From Cristatella mucedo (lineage: Eukaryota; Bryozoa; Phylactolaemata; Cristatellidae): 64,000 nt of DNA. Each line of letters opens with the position of its first letter. Positions within the stretch are counted from its first letter, which is position 1. The notes under the pieces are model-generated. The model was not told the DNA's origin, searched no databases, and was given only the letters and a program-made list of their open reading frames with translations. Where the stretch lies: contig WPIO01000025.1 in assembly GCA_009760855.2 (NCBI GenBank), positions 1,719,501 to 1,783,500 on the forward strand, in the 5' to 3' direction. Positions 19,996 to 64,000 of this stretch are shown here, in pieces. A program made the position numbers and the translations under genes.

Positions 19996-20178
19996 TCAAG
20001 GCAAAGGGTCGTAATCACACTGCTTTGCTTCTCCCAACCGTTCGGCTTCATTTAGTGAATCCGGTAAGCATTTTCTGTTGGTTTCAGGTATCGGTATAGT
20101 TGCCAGGCAGCTAGCAGCCAACGCGCCTCCAAATATCAAAGACGGTATACCTTGACTTGCGTAGCTCTTCCCAGTATC
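19996..20178 (-). CDS. SLC22 gene, last exon (TM12 and C-terminus)
   Basis: Follows the acceptor TTTGTAG in phase 0 and encodes 60 residues plus TGA. It includes TM12 (about GIPSLIFGGALAASCLATIP) and the IPETN motif, equivalent to the LPET end of TM12 in SLC22 proteins. A cytosolic tail with LPDSLNEAERLG resembles the usual LPDTIEEAE region. The stop is at 19998-19996. Confidence 0.93.
   Translation of the reverse strand, partial: DTGKSYASQGIPSLIFGGALAASCLATIPIPETNRKCLPDSLNEAERLGEAKQCDYDPLP

Positions 20179-64000: not shown

Follow-up and report, generated by a model that had tools for sequence, protein, structure and literature searches.

The closest described relatives of the protein considered here are the OCT, OAT and OCTN members of the SLC22 family, whose motif set comprises STIV..(W/F).LVC, PESPRW and TE..PT..RN and is partly taken over here from the initial annotation. 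The layout of these proteins, as outlined in excerpts of a published account, consists of 12 TM segments with a large extracellular loop between TM1 and TM2 and a large intracellular loop between TM6 and TM7 (PMC7084758). Residues important for binding and coupling are known from excerpts of several studies. In OCTN2 (human SLC22A5) R471 binds the carnitine carboxylate, N210 belongs to the sodium site and Q207 is a putative coupling residue, and the R471A mutant gives no measurable current (PMC12780140). The R466A mutant of OAT1 does not support function (PMC10643130), and the TM11 aspartate of OCT1 is D474 (PMC10567722). The gene structure of human SLC22A5 can be read from splice sites named in partial texts of three further papers: c.393+1, 394-1, 497+1, 498-2, 652+1, 653-2, 824+1, 825-1, 951+2 and 1267+3 (PMC13387816), c.1451-1 (PMC10763261) and c.1052+3 (PMC11900477).

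The window, i.e. the whole stretch of 64,000 nucleotides of Cristatella mucedo DNA that was analysed, carries on its minus strand what we regard with high confidence as an intact multi-exon gene for a major facilitator of the SLC22 family. Nine exons, from 64000-63912 to 20178-19996, are joined by eight GT/AG introns. The exons were located through motif matches, reading frames and the surrounding bases and were then joined; the intron phases and two exon sizes of the initial annotation were known when the borders were set, and the inner coordinates were not given there. The visible part of exon 1 (63912..64000, 89 bases) encodes TM1, QKFSLLCLQVVANSIVLHTLIYSVAEQKH followed by R, and ends at the donor GTAAGC in phase 2. 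Exon 2 (55509..55707, 199 bases, phase 0) encodes the large extracellular loop with three N-glycosylation sequons and ends with the residues STIVSQ, exon 3 (55202..55305, 104 bases, phase 2) continues with FNLVC, TM2 and ADK, exon 4 (50483..50634, 152 bases, phase 1) contains the YGRKK motif, TM3 and TM4, and exon 5 (48387..48558, 172 bases, phase 2) contains AMEIVGPSQR, TM5 and TM6. PESPRW, the intracellular loop and the start of TM7 are found in exon 6 (36218..36442, 225 bases, phase 2), TM7-TM9 together with ELPVIF, which includes E346, and LGRKKT in exon 7 (32121..32350, 230 bases, phase 1), and TM10, TM11, TEAMPTIYRN and Ala439 in exon 8 (20404..20585, 182 bases, phase 0). Exon 9 (19996..20178, 183 bases) encodes TM12, IPET...LPDSLNEAERLG and the C-terminal tail and closes with a TGA stop at 19998-19996.

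The introns measure 8204, 203, 4567, 1924, 11944, 3867, 11535 and 225 bases in the same order, and all 16 splice dinucleotides are canonical. The joined exons make up 1536 bases, that is 511 open codons and the stop; about 30 stops would be predicted in 511 joined codons from the rate of stop triplets on this strand (0.0587), and none is observed. The initial annotation had described nine exons with canonical borders, eight in-phase joins (2,0,2,1,2,2,1,0), a 511-codon open frame and a span of more than 44 kb. When re-derived from the letters, all eight introns run GT...AG and the rejoined exons agree with this description in every number, while 44,005 bases of the gene lie inside the window and the gene continues beyond the window end. 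The word "complete" used for this model was too strong because the first 20 or so residues, start codon included, sit past base 64000: the nine exons and the stop stand, the 5' end does not. Similarly, of the two exons that had been called small, the 104-base exon is indeed small, but the 89-base length of exon 1 is due to the window edge, which cuts the exon. Searches with tblastn (E up to 20) revealed no second SLC22 copy or duplicated exon in the window, all matches outside the exons having E ≥ 3.2. Altogether this looks like an intact gene with long introns, the start of which would lie just outside the window.

Exon 1 is the weakest part of the splice model. When aligned to OCTN2 residues 22-52 it scores 50, and this score was reached by none of its 20000 shuffles. 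The candidates comprised every phase-2 donor from the window end to exon 2 that offers 29 open codons (104 in all), and three exon 2 residues were included in the score equally for every candidate. One would argue that the true first coding exon is not 64000-63912, as exon 1 searched by itself gives no significant match and its stretch obtains -1.6 bits against OCTN2 in phmmer. However, the ungapped alignment to OCTN2 TM1 passes through the common HRC motif and the best of the remaining 103 donors scores only 15, thus we consider another first exon very unlikely and retain exon 1 as placed. The intron bases adjoining exon 2 (55708-55730) read in frame as LHTIYFS, which resembles the end of exon 1 (LHTLIYS); this likeness is probably due to chance in a pyrimidine-rich tract.

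The joined protein matches the TIGR00898 profile with E=9.6e-82 and 275.4 bits, and the next family follows at 3.1e-14 and 52.7 bits. The score is below the NCBIfam curated cut-off of 550.75, which is a naming rule that we do not regard as a defining feature of SLC22; the query lacks the N-terminus and the match begins at residue 81. Six of the nine exon peptides match this profile on their own, with E values of 0.0046, 0.0022, 7.1e-4, 1.2e-13, 8.3e-8 and 1.9e-12 for exons 3 to 8, respectively. Exons 1, 2 and 9 searched singly against the profile gave no match, and exons 1 and 2 combined gave no SLC22 match among the PDB chains. The Pfam families MFS_1 (9.7e-24) and Sugar_tr (6e-22) are both above their cut-offs. 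There are 27 PDB sequences at E ≤ 1e-3, of which 26 belong to SLC22 and one is SV2B (7.3e-6). The initial annotation had named a best protein match outside SLC22 and the major facilitator superfamily as evidence against its reading; the best match is in fact inside SLC22, namely OCTN2 (phmmer, E=2.1e-52, residues 90-499), followed by SLC22A3, OAT1 and OCT1. Identity to OCTN2 amounts to 120 of 393 aligned residue pairs (residues 90-493).

All three motifs that had been reported are located in the joined protein, STIVSQFNLVC at residues 91-101, PESPRW at 242-247 and TEAMPTIYRN within 402-428. Twelve hydrophobic segments were recovered in order, as had been claimed; nine of them pass a Kyte-Doolittle mean of at least 1.3 over 19 residues, and TM4 (1.29), TM8 (1.24) and TM10 (1.25) are just below this threshold. 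These 12 peaks and the large TM1-TM2 and TM6-TM7 loops agree with the SLC22 layout, the sidedness of the loops being the presumed one. It could be proposed that the protein belongs elsewhere in the MFS, to the sugar porters or the SV2-like proteins, as the Sugar_tr and SV2B matches would allow. Nevertheless, TIGR00898 is more than 200 bits ahead of the next family and OCTN2 more than 150 ahead of SV2B, and the protein and its gene share the motifs of SLC22 and intron sites of SLC22A5. We ruled this identity out by the profile and PDB score margins and give it practically no credence. The SLC22 identity is thus upheld by the profile match, the SLC22 structure chains and the intron positions common with human SLC22A5. 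Among prokaryote genomes 234 pattern stretches were found, with 41 loci that align with parts of the protein at 23-41% identity, and among viral contigs four pattern stretches were found, none of which was confirmed as a relative.

The exon borders were fixed before the human SLC22A5 splice sites were consulted. In the phmmer alignment, introns 2-6 of the window coincide to the exact base with c.393, 497, 652, 824 and 1052 among the human sites named in the excerpted reports. Intron 7 falls on c.1279 in the printed phmmer alignment because gaps are placed in the TM9-TM10 region, and on c.1267 in an ungapped alignment of exon 8 (21 of 60 residues identical); as the ungapped alignment was picked after the first result, this match counts as weaker. 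Therefore six of eight introns occupy the same base as one of these human sites, five by the printed alignment and one by the ungapped one. The chance of at least five exact matches out of seven is about 3e-10 under a simple uniform binomial. Both ends of exon 3 coincide with the sites of human introns (c.393 and c.497 in the same excerpts), and exon 5 with its 172 bases has the length of human SLC22A5 exon 4. Intron 1 has no counterpart among the human sites given in these excerpts, and human intron 5 (c.951) is absent here, its position falling within exon 6. Among the best-ranked literature matches listed, none deals with invertebrate SLC22 gene structure, which does not prove that such work is absent.

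Intron 8 starts one base from the human c.1450 site deduced from the partial text, in phase 0 versus phase 1. A GT 18 bases downstream of this exon 8 donor (AAA/GTATTG) is likewise in phase 0 and would add VGTSGK in frame, either in the main or in an alternative form. We consider this very unlikely, since the insertion would extend a loop that is already longer than in five aligned relatives and the first donor is already within one base of the human site. The first donor is therefore kept in the model.

The long introns and the sequence downstream of the gene contain LINE-type elements. One of them is in intron 5 on the strand of the gene (minus, about 37944..41319, also given as 38627-40947, the outer limits being approximate) and has endonuclease and RVT_1 (1.6e-31) frames and a 3' tail; another one, on the plus strand at 10202-12988, carries frames for an endonuclease and a reverse transcriptase. 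Shorter relatives are found at about 62080-62995, 57576-58029, 53692-54237, 49832-50075, 47331-47600, 44962-45335, 34026-34589, 25973-29285 and 1-688, and together these elements and relatives are placed in introns 1, 3, 4, 5, 6 and 7 and downstream of the gene. Intron bases that resemble sequence elsewhere in the window amount to 6130 of 42469 (14%), a count that leaves out single-copy element sequence, so LINE insertions were rejected as the whole explanation of the gene length and account for only part of it. The Pfam scan (E ≤ 1e-3) covered all 204 stop-free frames of at least 62 aa (sets of 123 and 85, four being common to both) and returned RVT_1 in two frames, endonuclease families in two and Sugar_tr in one, with none in the set of 85. 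Apart from the transporter and the LINE-type elements this frame scan gave no other genes in the window, though multi-exon genes with short exons could escape it; no RNA families at the gathering threshold and no tRNAs were found in the window. Intron 7 harbors a degenerate CCCTAAA array (25072-25239, about 23 copies, 68% match), which we take to resemble a plant-type telomere repeat, and a long AC microsatellite at 24496-24688 (97.5 copies) is the source of spurious HTHT and CVCV frames.

The comparison of pocket residues, as far as the excerpted reports name them, reveals a mixed picture. The equivalents of OCTN2 R169, Q180, Y211, Y358, E383, K436, F443, G473 and P478 are present, and the aromatic pocket Y358, Y211 and F443 corresponds to Y321, Y175 and F411 here. 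Unlike in OCTN2, R471 is replaced by Ala439, N210 by Cys174, Q207 by Ser171 and Y447 by Phe415. In a weak TM1 alignment, read by eye, S28 differs (Gln9) and N32 is kept (Asn13), so that two of the five sodium-related residues S28, N32, N210, Q180 and Q207 are retained (N32 and Q180), the TM1 pair coming from this weak alignment. The combination of OCTN sodium-site and coupling residues with a TM11 arginine is thus not found. The protein resembles OCT1-3 (SLC22A1-3), within the described features, in its fold by homology, its motifs and the E386 equivalent E346, the TM8-TM10 charge pair E386-R439 of OCT1 being E346-K404 here; it differs in the D474 equivalent, Ala439, in the OCT1 and SLC22A3 alignment rows. 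Compared with the available description of OAT1 (SLC22A6), the D378-K431 pair is again E346-K404 and F438 and N439 are F411 and N412, whereas the R466 equivalent is Ala439 and the K382 equivalent is Ile350. Ala439 (TM11, exon 8), an unusual and uncharged pocket residue, therefore occupies the position of the OCT aspartate and of the arginine of most OATs and OCTNs, and R471 (OCTN), D474 (OCT) and R466 (OAT), by which the three classes were tested, are all Ala439 here. Thus OCT, OAT or carnitine function is not to be assumed; judged by these residues such labels are unsupported, and the SLC22 label is supported.

Does the loss of the TM11 charge indicate a decayed gene? Ala439 does replace a residue that is essential in OCTN2 (R471A) and OAT1 (R466A) according to the excerpts cited (PMC12780140; PMC10643130), and the start codon and promoter are beyond the window. 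A recent unprocessed pseudogene, with exons intact by recency and with promoter, start or expression lost, is nevertheless highly improbable: the nine exons are free of stops, frameshifts and damaged splice sites, in line with the initial annotation, which saw no break in any exon, and the protein retains both the conserved motifs and the charge pair of TM8 and TM10. The word "functional" in the initial annotation nevertheless goes too far: the SLC22 gene is intact and likely functional, and we infer that it is transcribed.

The product would be, by homology, a plasma-membrane carrier with alternating access of the MFS type. It has a large TM1-TM2 loop with N-glycosylation sequons and a presumably intracellular loop between TM6 and TM7, and E346-K404 retains the TM8-TM10 charge pair. 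As the TM11 pocket charge is missing, the substrate is probably not bound in the OCT, OAT or carnitine mode, and our guess is an organic solute that is hydrophobic, neutral or only weakly charged. It could be, although we put this forward only tentatively, that the protein represents an invertebrate SLC22 subgroup without the TM11 charge that separates OCTs from OATs and OCTNs, hence acting on neutral or hydrophobic solutes or with a different coupling.

The protein appears to be a further member of a known family and ordinary overall, and the significance of the fact that a 44-kb gene with small exons is readable from raw sequence alone is modest. The exon layout nevertheless conserves six SLC22A5 intron sites despite about 30% protein identity, and the alanine at the charge-selectivity site provides a testable hint to the substrate class.
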